A stretch of 64,000 nt of DNA from Candidatus Brocadiaceae bacterium S225 (lineage in GTDB: Bacteria > Planctomycetota > Brocadiia > Brocadiales > Scalinduaceae). Position 1 is the first letter of the stretch. The number at the start of each line of letters is the position of its first letter. The notes below the pieces were generated by a model. It ran no database searches and was not told the origin of the DNA. It saw only the letters and a program-made list of their open reading frames with translations. Position numbers and translations under genes: made by a program. Shown one piece after another: positions 18,485 through 26,928 of this stretch. The DNA is taken from positions 1 through 64,000 of the forward strand of contig SMSL01000009.1 of the NCBI GenBank assembly GCA_007859995.1, written 5' to 3'.

Positions 18485-18976
18485 ATGAACAAGCTGCTCC
18501 AGTTTATCACCTTTACTATTCTGATAACCTCAATATTTATAACAAATAACCCAAAAGAGGCTTCTGCGGAAATTGTTGTAGTCCATGCTAACCAGGCATG
18601 GCAACTAACAGACATAATCCTGAAGAAAAATCATGTGATCAAGTGGGAAGTAAGAGTGAATGATTACTGGAGTTTTAATACAACAATATTTCCTGATGGA
18701 CATAATGCAGATGGAATTCCTGTACCTGCTTTAGAAAGTTATACGTTACCTGGAGAGAATATTGGCATGCTCCTTGGCAAAACGGGTGAAGATAGAATTA
18801 TATCAATGGGTTTGTCAGGATCCTCTGATGTTTTGTATGGAGAGGAAGGCTGTTATTTATATCTGTCCATAAATGATGACTTAATTGGTAAGTTTGGAGA
18901 AGGATTCAAGGACAATAACGATACAATAATGGTTACGATAACGCAAACTCTAAGGAATGTCGCCATGTCGGAGTAA
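18485..18976 (+). CDS. Exported LecA (PA-IL)-like domain protein
   Basis: A 163-residue protein with a signal peptide (hydrophobic 8-21, cleavage near ASA at 28). The mature part resembles the PA-IL/LecA beta-sandwich often found in planctomycete exported proteins: VVHANQAWQLTDIILKKNHVIKW near the start, PGENIGMLLGKTGED in the middle and GCYLYLSINDDLIGKFGEGFKDNNDTIMVTI at the end, including the Asn-Asp-Asp and Asp-Asn positions that carry calcium and sugar in LecA. Carbohydrate binding is inferred. A near-consensus promoter sits immediately upstream. The stop overlaps the next start (TAATG), so both genes are probably translated together. A divergent galactose-binding-like fold is the main alternative. 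Confidence 0.65.
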   Translation: MNKLLQFITFTILITSIFITNNPKEASAEIVVVHANQAWQLTDIILKKNHVIKWEVRVNDYWSFNTTIFPDGHNADGIPVPALESYTLPGENIGMLLGKTGEDRIISMGLSGSSDVLYGEEGCYLYLSINDDLIGKFGEGFKDNNDTIMVTITQTLRNVAMSE

Positions 18977-19275
18977 TGTTTATTGAGGGCTGTCCAGGTG
19001 TATCATCTATCGCAGATAATAATATTAAAGAGGTTATTGCTGAGAAGGCTGTTGATGCAGAGATTAGTTTGGTTTTAATTGATACACCAGAAGATGCGAG
19101 ACGATTACAGTTTACAGGTTCTCCCGCAGTGAGAATCAATGGAATGGATATAGAGCCTAATATGCAAGACATTAAAGATTATGGCCTGAGAAGTCGTAAT
19201 TATTATATAGATGGGGAAAAATCAGATTACCCTGCTAAAAGTATGACTAGAGACGCAATCAAAAAGGTAAAATAA
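18976..19275 (+). CDS. Thioredoxin-fold small protein
   Basis: 99 residues without a signal peptide. Features of a thioredoxin-like alpha/beta fold are visible: GCPGVSS near the N-terminus (single Cys in the position of the CxxC motif), a central ISLVLIDTPEDARRLQFTGSP with the cis-proline loop SPAVRINGMDIEP, then YGLRSRNYYIDG. This resembles the short thioredoxin-family proteins sometimes annotated near alkylmercury lyase. With only one N-terminal Cys it cannot work as a classical dithiol reductase. It starts at the overlapping TAATG of the secreted LecA-like gene, implying translational coupling, although one product is exported and this one appears cytoplasmic. Confidence 0.65.
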   Translation: MFIEGCPGVSSIADNNIKEVIAEKAVDAEISLVLIDTPEDARRLQFTGSPAVRINGMDIEPNMQDIKDYGLRSRNYYIDGEKSDYPAKSMTRDAIKKVK

Positions 19276-20861: not shown

Positions 20862-23800
20862 CTACAATATGCATATGTATGCGAATGCAAAGGCCGCAAA
20901 AACAGATAAATAACAGGCAATAGTCGATTTTGTTAAGAGGTGTTTTGTTTTTTTCGATAGAAGATAAAAAATATAGATACTTCCTGAAACTCCAGCAAGA
21001 ATAAATAATAATTCAATCGCTGACATAACCCCTATTTTATCAGCAGTCAAAACTTCATTTTCAGCTCTTACCGGGTGATAAACTCCTGTTATCTCTATCA
21101 ACGTCCAGAAATCTGCTTTAAGTTTATTCCAATAAAAAGCAAGATGTCCCATAAGCGCGAGTGGTATCGCCGCATATCCGAAATCCGTAATTCTTGTTTT
21201 TACATTGTGAAACGAAAACCCATTGCATACATAATCAAGAAAAATGATAGAACCAGATGGAAGAAAAGATACAAAGGTAAATATTAATGTATAAAGTACC
21301 GTTTGGTTGATTCCGATAAAACTGTATAGAGATTGAAACCACTGAGAATCCATGCTAAGAAGACTTTCATGCTCTACTAACAATATTCCCAATAGTGATA
21401 AACACAGTAACGACTCAGACAATGACCTATTGGACATGTTGCCTATGTCGCTTCCCGGTACCTGAAGATTGACCTTTATGGAACTGTGACCGCAATTTTT
21501 GTAACAGTTCATACATAAAACGCAATCTCTACCATTTTCCAATCCATAAGGATGTAAATACATTGGACAACCTTCTGTTAATTGCGTTCCCAGGTAGCAA
21601 TCGTGAGTTTCACATTGGTTCAGGCAGACGCTTCTGTTTGCTTTCAAAGAAGTTATTGATGCAAGCGAATAAACACCAAACAAGCCGCCCAGCGGGCAAA
21701 CATATCTGCACCATACTCTTCTTTCAAAGATCAAGCCTGAAATAACGGCTCCTGAAAGAATAAGGATAATCAAATATGCTGTTAATGTCGAAGAGCGTTG
21801 AATTGCCGTGACACCTTCAAACCAGAAGACTAATATTATTAGTCCAATGGTGATATACTTTCCGTATGAAACCAGTATCTTCGGTATTTGCAGATTAAAA
21901 TTTTTAAATCTCTTCACCGAATCACCGGCAGCAGCGAAAGGGCATATCCCACATAAAAATCTTCCGGAAACAAAAGTTATTAAATACATGCCAAATATGC
22001 CTGCCGACCAGAATAATGTATTTATAAAATTTAACTGCCCATCTTTATGCCCCAAAAAAAGCATTAAAAGTGTAATTACAAGCAATATAGAACTTAGAAG
22101 TTGAAGACCCGATGGGTAAAATTTGCTCTTTAAAAATCTTTGAACCACATCAAATGAAAGAAAGTCAAAAGACCATTTTTTTTCTCCCATTGGTATGCCA
22201 AAAAAGATTTGTTCTGACGTAATTACATCACCTTTTGCCAGGATAACTGCACGTCTCAGCACATTCTCAAGCTCTTTAACGTTTCCTGGCCAATCATAAC
22301 TCATCAACCTTCCCATAGCATTGTCAGATACATTTTTCACGTCTTTGTGCAATTCGCGACTGATCTTCTCAAGAAAGTCTTTTGTTAGCATTGGGATACT
22401 GCGTTTCTGATCTCTAATCGCTTTTAATTGATAGTGGTTCTTGCTTAATATTTTATATAAACTTTTATCAAACTTTCCTTCCTCTATAGATGAAGGAATA
22501 TCTTCAGATACAGATGAAATAATTCTCGCGTTTGAAAAGATGGTGCCATTTCCATTGACACGGTTAAATTTCCCATCCTGTAGATAATTCAGCAATTTGA
22601 TTTGGTTCGCTTGATTCAACTTATCGATATGGTCTAAGAAAATTGTTCCCGAGTCAGCAAGTTCTATATATCCCAGATGAGTTGCTATATTTCCTGTTTC
22701 AATAGATTTCCGAGGAGACAAATTGTCATGTAAATCATTCCCATTTGAGTCATCCGTGCTTATTACTTGAGAACTTTGTTCATAACCAAAAAGCTCGTTC
22801 CCCCATGATTCACTGTCAATATCCCTGCAATCAATCACTATAAAAGGGCCTTTATAACGTTTGCTCCTGTAATGAATGGTTTTTGACATGGGAATCTTTC
22901 CTGTCCCATCTTCACCTCTTATTAGCACAGGTTCATTAATCGAAGCCATCGAATCAACGAAAGCATTTATTTTGTCAATATACTTACCTTTACCTACAAA
23001 ACCAGGGTCGTCTGAAACTTTCCTGCTACTTACTCCCTCTGCAATCTGTATCCTTCTTTTGAGTCGAGCATGGGAAATAGCAAGGGCAATGTGGTTGGCC
23101 ATAATCGTCAATCCCCTGATATCGTCGTATGTGTACTTTCTCTTATCAACAGTCTGAATGTTAATTGCGCCTATAACGTCATTCTTCTCACCTAATGGCA
23201 AAGACAAGAGTGAGGATAAACGTTCCTCATGGATTTCCGTAATAAGCTTTACCCTTGGGTCGGTATGAACATCTTCAAGTGCAACGGGCTCACCATTTTT
23301 AACTACCCATCCGGTAACTCCCTCGCCTTCAGCTAATCGCATTCTCACATTCTTCATTACTTTATCATTAAAGCCAACTGCTGCCTCCAACACCAGATCC
23401 TGGGTAACCCTGTCAACTAAATAGATAGAACACGCATCCGCCTGCATCTCCTTGTTAACGGCTTTAACGACTGATAAGAGTGTTTTATTAATATCTTCCG
23501 ATGTCTGGAAAAGCCTGGTTACTCTATTTATTACGTCTAACTTTCTCTCCTTTTCAAACTTATCTTCAATTACTCCAACTATCTTTATTTTCTCCTTTTC
23601 AAAAAAATCAAAGAAGACTTTTATTCTCATTGAAACAACTCTGGCTAAATACATACTCAAAAGAGGATTCTTTTGAAATAGCTCCTGGATATCATCATTG
23701 TAAATTACAAAGAGTTCAACATCTTCCTTCGCCTTTTTGGTTGCAAGGTACGGTTCATCAGTAAGGATAGAAATAGCGCCAAAACAATCTCCTTTGCTGA

Positions 23801-24059
23801 GCACTGCTACGGTAATCTCTTCCCCGCTACTATCAACTAAGGTTTCTGCTACGGATCCCGCGTGAATGATAAACAGGCAATTGCCCTTCTGTCCTCTTTC
23901 ACATATAGTCTTGCCTACCCCATAATGTTGGATCTGGATCCTGGATACAATCTTCTTTAAAAGAGTGTTAGACAATAAGGAAAACGGTTCATAATTCCGG
24001 AGAAAGTCTCTTTTTTGCTTAAAAAAACTCTTCTCTTCTGTCATTTTAATTTTCTTCAT
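20862..24059 (-). CDS. Multidomain sensor: cyclic-nucleotide-binding + GAF + degenerate sigma-54 AAA+ + NosR/NapH-like membrane ferredoxin
   Basis: A 1065-residue fusion. Residues 25-150 are a Crp-type cyclic-nucleotide-binding domain (EITVAVLSKGDCFGAISILTD). About 180-335 is GAF. About 352-620 is a sigma-54-activator AAA+ domain: Walker A GEDGTGK (382-388), Walker B FLDHID (catalytic Glu replaced by His) and WPGNVKELENVLRRA (590-604). The GAFTGA loop that contacts sigma-54 is missing after ELFGYEQ, the arginine-finger region reads FDKSLYKIL, and no DNA-binding Fis helix follows. Instead there are about ten membrane segments with CGICP (703-707), CRYVCP (784-789), a four-Cys run (812-831) and CVLCMNC-x3-C (847-856), as in NosR/NapH/CcoG electron-transfer proteins. 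A membrane redox sensor or redox-controlled electron carrier is inferred. The gene is monocistronic. Confidence 0.85.
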   Translation of the reverse strand: MKKIKMTEEKSFFKQKRDFLRNYEPFSLLSNTLLKKIVSRIQIQHYGVGKTICERGQKGNCLFIIHAGSVAETLVDSSGEEITVAVLSKGDCFGAISILTDEPYLATKKAKEDVELFVIYNDDIQELFQKNPLLSMYLARVVSMRIKVFFDFFEKEKIKIVGVIEDKFEKERKLDVINRVTRLFQTSEDINKTLLSVVKAVNKEMQADACSIYLVDRVTQDLVLEAAVGFNDKVMKNVRMRLAEGEGVTGWVVKNGEPVALEDVHTDPRVKLITEIHEERLSSLLSLPLGEKNDVIGAINIQTVDKRKYTYDDIRGLTIMANHIALAISHARLKRRIQIAEGVSSRKVSDDPGFVGKGKYIDKINAFVDSMASINEPVLIRGEDGTGKIPMSKTIHYRSKRYKGPFIVIDCRDIDSESWGNELFGYEQSSQVISTDDSNGNDLHDNLSPRKSIETGNIATHLGYIELADSGTIFLDHIDKLNQANQIKLLNYLQDGKFNRVNGNGTIFSNARIISSVSEDIPSSIEEGKFDKSLYKILSKNHYQLKAIRDQKRSIPMLTKDFLEKISRELHKDVKNVSDNAMGRLMSYDWPGNVKELENVLRRAVILAKGDVITSEQIFFGIPMGEKKWSFDFLSFDVVQRFLKSKFYPSGLQLLSSILLVITLLMLFLGHKDGQLNFINTLFWSAGIFGMYLITFVSGRFLCGICPFAAAGDSVKRFKNFNLQIPKILVSYGKYITIGLIILVFWFEGVTAIQRSSTLTAYLIILILSGAVISGLIFERRVWCRYVCPLGGLFGVYSLASITSLKANRSVCLNQCETHDCYLGTQLTEGCPMYLHPYGLENGRDCVLCMNCYKNCGHSSIKVNLQVPGSDIGNMSNRSLSESLLCLSLLGILLVEHESLLSMDSQWFQSLYSFIGINQTVLYTLIFTFVSFLPSGSIIFLDYVCNGFSFHNVKTRITDFGYAAIPLALMGHLAFYWNKLKADFWTLIEITGVYHPVRAENEVLTADKIGVMSAIELLFILAGVSGSIYIFYLLSKKTKHLLTKSTIACYLSVFAAFAFAYICIL

Positions 24060-25012: not shown

Positions 25013-25585
25013 ATGAAGGATAAATCGGATGTAGAAGTAATACTAAATCATATACGCAACCTTGAAGATGTTACATTAAAACCCATAATGGATATTGTGG
25101 CGCTAAAAATATCCGAGGGTCCTTATGACATGGGACCGGAAAATAATATTACTAAAGCTGAGGAAATAACGGCAGAATATATTTCAGAAAATTACAGTAC
25201 CATTGATGAATTTCACGAAAAATTAAGAATATTAGATGGCGGTATTAAAGGTATAGAAACGATTGCGAATAAGATCTATAAACATTATAAAACCAGTGAC
25301 CACCTCGATTTTGAAACAGTCAAACACAACATAAGCAGTAAGAAAGATATCACATTAAAGACAATTACTGATCTGGTCGCATATAAAATTTCGCAAAGTG
25401 CTCATGATCAAGGATCTGAATTAAATTTTGTTTCTGCTGAGACTTTCGTAGCCGAATACGTTTCGAAAAACTATAGAAACAAGGAAGAAATGGAAAAGAA
25501 GATATCAAAATTGGATAAAGGTTCGAAAGGGCTAAGTGCTTTCGCTGATATCGTATACAACCATTTTGTCAGTAAAAACAAATGA
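25013..25585 (+). CDS. Protein of two tandem ~90-residue helical repeats, function unknown
   Basis: 190 residues that align to themselves without gaps: residues 5-94 and 95-184 share the pattern (I/V)TLK-I-D-VA-KIS, a Glu-Asn/Leu-Asn turn, AE-(I/V)AEY(I/V)S-NY, and a final LD-G-KG-x4-A-x-VY-H. The repeats are predicted mostly helical and charged, with no signal peptide and no membrane segment. I do not recognise the family. Its stop overlaps the start of the FHA-trypsin gene (ATGA), so it is almost certainly translationally coupled to it and may act as its cytoplasmic partner. Other explanations cannot be excluded. No strong ribosome-binding site precedes the ATG. Confidence 0.75.
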   Translation: MKDKSDVEVILNHIRNLEDVTLKPIMDIVALKISEGPYDMGPENNITKAEEITAEYISENYSTIDEFHEKLRILDGGIKGIETIANKIYKHYKTSDHLDFETVKHNISSKKDITLKTITDLVAYKISQSAHDQGSELNFVSAETFVAEYVSKNYRNKEEMEKKISKLDKGSKGLSAFADIVYNHFVSKNK

Positions 25586-26928
25586 AGGCTATCTTCGTTC
25601 ATCTGTCAGGAAGTAAGAGGGGTAAGACCGAGTTCTTTACTGATTCAAAAATCAGCGTTGGAACGGATCGTTCATGCAATCTTCGTTTTGACCAGTCTAT
25701 AGATAAAAGTACCTCACCTTTTCATGCAGAAATAAACTTACAGGAATGTGATTATGTCCTGAAGGATTTGAACAGTGCTAAAGGCACGTTTGTAAATAAC
25801 AGACAAATACAGGAGGTTGTTATTCATGATGGTGATCTTATTGAATATGGTGACAACGGACCAAGAGCACGTTTCAGGATAAAGACTGAGGAGGGAGATG
25901 TATGTAAGCCATTCAGGGAAATACTGGCAGATTCTATGGATATTGCCAGAGAGCCTCATAAAGGACGGAAGCTGGCCACTGCAACAGTTTTTTTTAAAAG
26001 TTTATTAACTGAGGCATTCACACAATCTTCAGCGAAATTTAAGCTTGTTACTCTCTCTATCTTCCTGCTTTCCTTTATAGGTATTATTACCTTAGTCTAT
26101 AACACATTCTCCGTTCTGACAGAAACAACAAAAAGAGTCGAACTCCTTGAATTTGAAAGCGCTATCGGTGAAAAAATAATAAAAGATTTCGGCAGAGGTG
26201 TCTGTTTTATTCAGTGTTCTTTTTCGTTAGTTGATGAAGTTTCTGGTAAGCCGTTAACATCATGGAGGGATGGAAGTTTATTGACTAATAACCTCACAGG
26301 GACCGGATTTATCATTGGCAATGGTAAGATTTTTACAAATCGTCATATTGCGGAACCCTGGTGGCAGCAAACAGAATATGCCATTCCTTTGGGGCCAGGC
26401 TTAACTCCCAGGTTTGAGGTGTTCAGGGCTTTTTTCCCTGGTGTGGCAGACCCGGTCGCACTCAGAGTAGAAAAAGTTTCTGACATCGCCGATGTTGCTC
26501 TTTTAAGTTTTGATACTGAGGGCATTGATATACCGATACTTGAATTGGATTTAAGTGGTAAGGATGCAATAGAGGGAGAACCTGTTGTCCTGTTAGGTTA
26601 TCCGGCCGGTATGAATGCGCTTTACGCAAAAAGCGATCCGGAGATTGCACAGGAAATATCTAAATTATCATTTCTGGACGCGGCTCAGGAGCTTTCTAAC
26701 CATCGCCTTATAAAACCGATAGCAACCCAGGGACATATTAGCGATGTTTTAAACAAAAGAATTATATATGATGCGCAAACAACTGTTGGTGGTAGCGGTG
26801 GTCCGCTTTTCAATAATAAAGGCGAAGTAATTGCTATAAATTATGGAATCTTCCGCGGTTTCAGGGGAGCAAACTTTGGTGTCCCTATAAAGTATGCCAT
26901 AGAATTACTAGAAGATGAAAAACATTAA
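25582..26928 (+). CDS. Membrane-anchored FHA domain - trypsin-like serine protease
   Basis: 448 residues. An N-terminal FHA domain (about 1-100; SVGTDRSCNL, the SPFHAEI strand, LKDLNSAKGTFVNNR) would bind phosphothreonine in the cytoplasm. One transmembrane segment (about 154-174) follows, then a chymotrypsin-fold protease outside the inner membrane. The catalytic triad reads as H255 (TNRHIAEP), D304 (DIADVALLSF) and S405 (VGGSGGPLF), all intact. There is no PDZ domain, unlike DegP/HtrA. The inferred role is transmembrane signalling from a phosphorylated partner to periplasmic proteolysis, or the reverse. It is coupled upstream to the tandem-repeat protein and overlaps the downstream HAD gene by 14 nt. 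Confidence 0.88.
   Translation: MKAIFVHLSGSKRGKTEFFTDSKISVGTDRSCNLRFDQSIDKSTSPFHAEINLQECDYVLKDLNSAKGTFVNNRQIQEVVIHDGDLIEYGDNGPRARFRIKTEEGDVCKPFREILADSMDIAREPHKGRKLATATVFFKSLLTEAFTQSSAKFKLVTLSIFLLSFIGIITLVYNTFSVLTETTKRVELLEFESAIGEKIIKDFGRGVCFIQCSFSLVDEVSGKPLTSWRDGSLLTNNLTGTGFIIGNGKIFTNRHIAEPWWQQTEYAIPLGPGLTPRFEVFRAFFPGVADPVALRVEKVSDIADVALLSFDTEGIDIPILELDLSGKDAIEGEPVVLLGYPAGMNALYAKSDPEIAQEISKLSFLDAAQELSNHRLIKPIATQGHISDVLNKRIIYDAQTTVGGSGGPLFNNKGEVIAINYGIFRGFRGANFGVPIKYAIELLEDEKH

Follow-up and report, generated by a model that had tools for sequence, protein, structure and literature searches.

What would a protein do that starts like a bacterial transcription regulator and ends, in the same frame, as an iron-sulfur (Fe-S) membrane module? 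A gene with this layout lies in the genome of Candidatus Brocadiaceae bacterium S225, within a stretch of 64,000 nucleotides (contig SMSL01000009.1, positions 1 to 64,000) that we analysed as a whole and call the window. Judging from its sequence, we predict with moderate confidence that the fused protein is a NapH-like membrane Fe-S electron-transfer protein gated by a signal-receiving front end.

Domain architecture of the fused gene

The gene is one unbroken open reading frame (ORF) on the minus strand, from ATG to stop, and encodes 1065 amino acids (aa; Table 1). The Pfam search retrieved, in this order, a CRP-like domain (cNMP_binding, 1.3e-19), a GAF domain (GAF_2, 3.5e-17), a σ54-activator AAA+ core (Sigma54_activat, PF00158, 6.4e-32, 111 bits, two stretches, the best at residues 455-539), an AAA+ lid (AAA_lid_14, PF25601, 2.3e-21, 75.8 bits), and Fer4_5 (1.9e-6, two stretches, the best at residues 761-797, 28.2 bits vs. 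a gathering score of 22). Thus, the original prediction, made from the letters of the window, of a single 1065-codon frame with four domain types was borne out by the ORF and the domain search; it had named no strand.

Bacterial enhancer-binding proteins normally present a sensor, an AAA+ motor, and a DNA-binding domain, in that order. The Pfam scan of the fused protein found no helix-turn-helix (HTH) family and no FMN_bind match, and the first membrane segment starts about 30 residues after the end of the lid. The DNA-binding helix reported as missing is indeed absent. The S225 genome itself encodes RpoN plus many normal σ54 activators.

Distribution of the fused frame

The fused frame is 70-96% identical in other Scalindua and Brocadiaceae records, so it is not a product of chance. 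These related records (L021-L031) are assigned to Scalindua, Brocadiaceae, or a planctomycete, and the closest named relatives belong to Candidatus Scalindua, with 96% identity (L021 and L029, both encoding the same protein). Of the 17 genomes available for the bacterial family, 13 have an unbroken frame with a single match across the lid and the membrane module. In 11 of these 13 it is a long form (frames of at least 979 aa, one ended by a contig edge). As for the other four genomes, the match was split over contig ends in G390, the frames were broken in G400, and G374 and G392 gave no fused match.

The original prediction had considered an assembly join or frameshift at residues ~620-640, as well as homologs always encoded by two separate genes. 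An artefact at the join between the AAA+ part and the membrane part was rejected because fused frames recur in independent genomes, and the relatives are fused rather than split. We also rejected a stand-alone module of Deinococcus ficus as a split form: its upstream neighbour is a His-rich frame of 308 residues without a Pfam match.

Within the planctomycete phylum, 63 of 392 genomes matched. A one-frame fused match was found in at least 10 of the 392, from five families of the sample, with G390 as an extra case split over contigs; 52 genomes matched the module part only or the lid only. These counts are lower bounds, since scoring was limited to five candidates for each genome (E 1e-25). Outside Planctomycetota, the analysis covered plasmids and one contig scan with short peptide patterns, which gave one weak match in Cloacimonadota (residues 247-360). 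Two cyanobacterial plasmids encode relatives, of 904 aa in Aulosira laxa NIES-50 and 897 aa in Pseudanabaena galeata, both with cNMP, AAA+, lid, and Fer4_5 matches but no GAF match. The S225 genome contains a second, shorter copy (cNMP, AAA+, and Fer4_5; 867 aa), and shorter relatives were also found in other planctomycete families. The fused protein is therefore not a single oddity: the Scalindua family alone has three or more types of it, and other lineages have relatives. Database names of its members include 'nitrogen assimilation regulatory protein' and 'cyclic nucleotide-binding domain-containing protein'.

A disabled AAA+ core

We compared the AAA+ residues of 21 family rows (several closely related to one another) with those of 14 activators from the S225 genome. 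As controls we used every entry ranked 3 to 16 in the own-genome match list; the ORF was chosen by a motif filter and no locus was lost. The GAFTGA loop was absent from every family row and present in 14/14 controls (as G[AS][FY]T[GD]A; 13 strict). The Walker-B Glu and the arginine finger FRxDL(Y/F)xR were each found in 0/21 family rows vs. 14/14 controls, and the Walker-B Asp was kept in five of the 21 rows vs. all controls. The P-loop Lys was retained in 20/21 rows and 14/14 controls. In the window protein, Walker B reads FLDHID, with D476 kept and followed by H477, and in proteins of the window type a segment of variable sequence, about 33 residues long (428-460), occupies the GAFTGA position. 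Neither GAFTGA nor the Walker-B Glu is present in row L115, from outside the 21-row alignment.

With the loop, the Walker-B Glu, and the arginine finger all lost, ATP hydrolysis and σ54 contact are very unlikely in the family members seen; nucleotide binding by the core may persist. The loss of the GAFTGA loop and of the Walker B Glu had been read from the window protein and holds across the family. The claim that the AAA+ part is unfit as an ordinary σ54 activator gains from the missing arginine finger. We rejected an ordinary σ54 activator because these three features and the HTH are all missing. A σ54-like promoter pattern gave 23 matches in the whole window vs. 25.8 expected, and none between the fused gene and its upstream neighbour.

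A conserved iron-sulfur membrane module

The 12 cluster cysteines (703/706, 784/788, 812/816/821/831, and 846/849/852/856) and the CxxCP and CxxxCP motifs were kept in 21/21 family rows, in agreement with the earlier claim that the Cys motifs for electron transfer are complete. Hydropathy of the module displayed four segments, a ferredoxin-like loop, and then at least four more segments, with CxxCP at the end of the second membrane segment and CxxxCP just after the fourth. From these motif positions and a cytoplasmic N-terminus, all the Fe-S clusters would face the cytoplasm.

The top NCBIfam family for the module was napH (TIGR02163), whose curated cut-off of 213.05 was not reached (38.2 bits); NosR, at 17.0 bits, did not reach its cut-off of 1000 either. 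The module had been described as NosR/NapH-type; by these scores it is closer to NapH than to NosR, and it has no FMN domain. A sequence search for solved relatives of the membrane module found none, the matches being to the AAA+ lid and, after these, at E 0.6 or more.

NapH-like modules were also seen at other planctomycete loci, one in a frame with an additional YHS-like stretch (L073 967-2961) and one at a locus whose long frame matches NapG-type ferredoxins (L078 308-2890).

A variable front end

The phosphate-binding cassette of the window protein, FGAISILTDEPYLAT, lacks the Glu and Arg that we take to be the residues binding the cyclic-nucleotide phosphate; one control from the same genome, FGEMGLVDDQPRSAT, has both. 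Cyclic-nucleotide binding by the window protein is therefore unlikely, and a simple cyclic-nucleotide sensor is doubtful. Of the cyclic-nucleotide regulator first proposed, the CRP-like domain is confirmed by Pfam, but binding of the ligand is not expected. The cassette differs among relatives: type 2 keeps the Glu and has Cys in place of Arg, L066 and L067 keep the Glu and have Ala in place of Arg, and type 3 (L070, L071, L115) keeps both residues, with cyclic-nucleotide binding possible.

Front ends vary while the AAA+ core, the lid, and the module stay. They consist of cNMP and GAF domains, cNMP alone, or HisKA and a receiver, the last ahead of the dead AAA+/Fe-S unit in G253 (L069 1006-4083, frame open at the locus edge). 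Such variation is what would be expected if the front end were the input and the Fe-S part the output.

Evolution of the family

In the tree of the AAA+ core and lid, 14 fused rows fell on one side of a branch with 100/99 support vs. 41 activators (all 14 from the S225 genome and all 27 fetched from planctomycetes). An earlier tree without 12 of these activators (11 planctomycete and one from S225, removed by a GAFTGA filter) gave the same result. Ten of the 11 planctomycete activators filtered earlier have GAFT[DN]A and L037 has no loop; all 11 fall outside the group of fused rows. In the tree of the membrane module, the 14 fused rows were also set apart (support 93/93) from 21 other rows (19 phylum-scan loci, one family-genome locus, and the Deinococcus protein), the stand-alone Deinococcus protein being the nearest. 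Both trees are consistent with one old fusion. This reading is weakened by some rows having long branches and an uneven composition, and by an AAA+ tree bootstrap that had not fully settled.

As a separate observation, GAFTDA or GAFTNA together with an intact arginine finger was found in the planctomycete activators L041, L042, L044, L046, L047, L050, L051, L054, L056, and L057.

We calculated dN/dS on seven pairs. The values were 0.08-0.19 for the AAA+ core as a whole, 0-0.26 for the lid, 0.03-0.11 for the ferredoxin-like loop, and 0.05-0.12 for GAF. The insert at residues 428-460 is fast-evolving (0.12-1.4, a short and noisy stretch). By these ratios, every domain apart from the insert is under purifying selection.

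A broader scenario can be put forward tentatively: a dead σ54-type AAA+ core might have been recruited once, joined to a NapH-like module, and used as an interchangeable hub by which ligand, GAF, or phosphorelay inputs control electron flow at the membrane, in bacteria with or without σ54. The available text of PMC3162934 reports that σ54 and its activators were absent from all 29 cyanobacterial strains examined. Together with the cyanobacterial relatives, and judging from the strains of that survey, this would fit a σ54-free function.

Proposed function and alternatives

The inputs vary, the motor is disabled, and the Fe-S module is conserved; this is read most simply with the module as output and the pseudo-AAA+ core as a hub. 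The Fe-S membrane module takes the place of the DNA-binding domain, and the disabled AAA+ core may serve for nucleotide binding or oligomerisation. This hub would relay the state of the GAF and CRP-like domains to the Fe-S module, with the clusters on the cytoplasmic side, beside it. The module would then connect a partner in the cytoplasm, by electron transfer, to the quinone pool or to a second complex in the membrane. What the sequences show is the architecture, the lost and kept residues, their conservation, and agreement with one old fusion, whereas nucleotide binding, gating, topology, the direction of electron flow, and the partner are inferred.

A redox gene row beside one paralog type counts for electron transfer. 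In L112 (1-6851) and L115 (1-6797), the two loci with the 5' flank read, the type-3 gene points away from a row of genes of the Rieske, FAD/NAD(P)-Fe-S, cytochrome b, multihaem, and HAO-like kinds (Pfam was run on L112), and the coordinates suggest the same arrangement in G390. The Kuste4569-4574 complex, which is like this row, is a proposed NAD(P)H generator, and the proposed NAD(P)H-generating complexes of anammox bacteria are presented as an open problem, in the available text of PMC12954380. A repeated in-frame TAG in the NAD(P)-oxidoreductase genes was rejected as an artefact, with no internal stop in four re-read loci.

Several points speak against a regulated electron-transfer protein. 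The window gene is isolated, its upstream neighbour being divergent and its downstream one convergent, and its gene block, common to Scalindua loci, has no obvious partner. The link between type 3 and redox genes does not hold throughout. Close NAD(P)-oxidoreductase homologues (78 and 81%) occur in G393 and G400, yet neither genome has a full-length type-3 match, and L113 ends ~0.9 kb beyond the type-3 gene start, with a 5' flank too short to tell. The CRP-like domain of types 1 and 2 has probably lost cyclic-nucleotide binding, though type 2 adjoins a cyclase. One of the 21 family rows has N instead of the P-loop Lys, so nucleotide binding may not be essential. The copy of S. rubra (L031 55-3115, L099) lies in four pieces and several frames, with residues 797-955 unmatched, and may be a pseudogene or reflect draft errors. 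Finally, structure prediction gave no usable model, either for the whole protein (mean pLDDT 31) or for residues 625-1065 (35).

Signalling in the opposite direction seems unlikely to us. The Fe-S module would sense the quinone or ferredoxin state, and the pseudo-AAA+ hub would signal via a partner such as an enhancer-binding protein or a signalling enzyme. This would suit the N-terminal parts, which are classical signalling domains, and a dead AAA+ core could enter rings together with functional activators, of which the genome encodes many. However, no output domain remains, and it is unlikely that the partner is a σ54 activator throughout the family, since two relatives are from cyanobacteria, reported to lack σ54 and its activators in the available text of PMC3162934.

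We also doubt that the protein is a constitutive electron-transfer subunit whose front end only provides a dimerisation or docking scaffold, with no sensing. The degraded CRP-like ligand residues, the AAA+ catalytic residues lost apart from the P-loop, and the fast evolution of the stretch replacing GAFTGA would all agree with it. Nevertheless, the dN/dS values of GAF and lid and the P-loop Lys kept in all rows but one argue for more than a scaffold, and a plain scaffold would not need input domains that vary by lineage.

A role in the maturation or assembly of a respiratory enzyme, using thiol or Fe-S motifs as proposed in part for NosR, is improbable: NosR likely acts in NosZ activation as well as in electron transfer to NosZ (PMC5928378, available text) and in two genomes type 3 adjoins the row of Rieske and cytochrome b genes, but no client-like gene was found beside the window type and no FMN domain was found by Pfam.

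Relation to known proteins

If the gated electron-transfer reading is true, a signalling front end with a dead AAA+ hub would tie cell signalling directly to respiratory electron flow. The family would be a variation on NapH-like proteins and possibly a new class of regulated electron-transfer protein. Membrane electron-transfer modules of the NapH/NosR kind are widespread; to our knowledge, none is known to be controlled directly by signalling domains within its own polypeptide.

As in NapH/MauN-type proteins (NapH, NosR, PceC/RdhC), the family presents a CxxCP/CxxxCP membrane module with Fer4_5, and it shares ferredoxin-like clusters with NapH and NosR. Unlike the NapH kind, the fused protein scores far below the napH cut-off and has extra C-terminal membrane segments and a Cx3Cx4Cx9CP set. 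Unlike NosR, it has a regulator-derived cytoplasmic front end and no FMN domain. The shared NapH-like module and its supposed quinol or electron-transfer role are described in the available texts of PMC5928378 and PMC8238504; the main text of the latter contains neither 'sigma' nor 'cyclic nucleotide'.

With σ54 enhancer-binding proteins of the NtrC/NifA kind, the fused protein shares a sensor, an AAA+ core, and a lid in the same order, but it lacks their GAFTGA, Walker-B Glu, arginine finger, and HTH. Its best NCBIfam match is NifA (235.8 bits), and it falls below the curated cut-off of each family among the matches listed (25 of 39). TyrR, HupR, DhaR, and VpsR are transcription regulators with DNA-binding domains. 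According to the available text of PMC3162934, they are σ54-activator homologues without a proper σ54 contact loop, like the fused family, which differs by its Fe-S membrane module at the position of the DNA-binding domain.

The original prediction knew of no characterised protein with this layout, and the follow-up agrees: we did not find it among the matches listed in the open-licence literature, in the text available, nor among those listed for a full-length sequence search of the PDB (60 of 165). There is also a warning for annotation, since the name of one cyanobacterial member, of the two found, is that of a nitrogen assimilation regulator, yet it lacks the residues needed for σ54 action.

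Features and gene neighbourhoods

Table 1. Features of the fused gene, with residues of the protein and positions in the window
Feature	Residues	Position	Strand	Evidence
Whole fused gene, 1065 aa		20862..24059	-	ORF, Pfam, one frame across relatives
CRP-like (cNMP_binding) domain, without phosphate-binding Glu and Arg	44-131	23667..23930	-	Pfam, alignment
GAF domain	188-328	23076..23498	-	Pfam
Degenerate σ54-activator AAA+ core	~353-545	22425..23003	-	Pfam, alignment
P-loop GEDGTGK	382-388	22896..22916	-	alignment
Variable stretch replacing GAFTGA loop	428-460	22680..22778	-	alignment, dN/dS
Degenerate Walker B FLDHID	474-479	22623..22640	-	alignment
AAA+ lid (AAA_lid_14) with GNVKELE	549-619	22203..22415	-	Pfam
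First four membrane segments	651-777	21729..22109	-	hydropathy
CxxCP motif CGICP	703-707	21939..21953	-	hydropathy, alignment
CxxxCP motif CRYVCP	784-789	21693..21710	-	hydropathy, alignment
Ferredoxin-like loop, 8 Cys (Cx3Cx4Cx9CP + CxxCxxCx3C)	812-856	21492..21626	-	alignment
C-terminal membrane segments	883-1065	20865..21413	-	hydropathy

Type 2 lies directly 3' of a CHASE2-cyclase gene in the five loci examined (of seven type-2 matches), four of which also have a SLAC1-type channel gene nearby. These neighbours were identified by Pfam on the pair of the S225 genome and by sequence family at the other loci. In S225, the shorter paralog and the CHASE2/class III cyclase gene (L120 8496-11099 and 11066-13480) overlap by 34 bases if the TTG start of the paralog is used.

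The cyanobacterial plasmid members (L105 5903-9594 and L106 5921-9558) have a cysteine synthase gene directly 3', within 20 bases, and the Pseudanabaena plasmid has rhodanese-like, DsrE, and glutaredoxin genes nearby. These neighbours hint at sulfur metabolism.

Beside the fused gene, a conserved block of several Scalindua loci includes an FHA domain fused to a trypsin-like protease (window 25582-26928). Two short frames of 163 and 99 aa (window 18485-19275) belong to one sequence family with single genes of 262-268 aa in L116 and L121, and are possibly one gene split by a frameshift; short frames of the same family were found in L022, L023, and L117.

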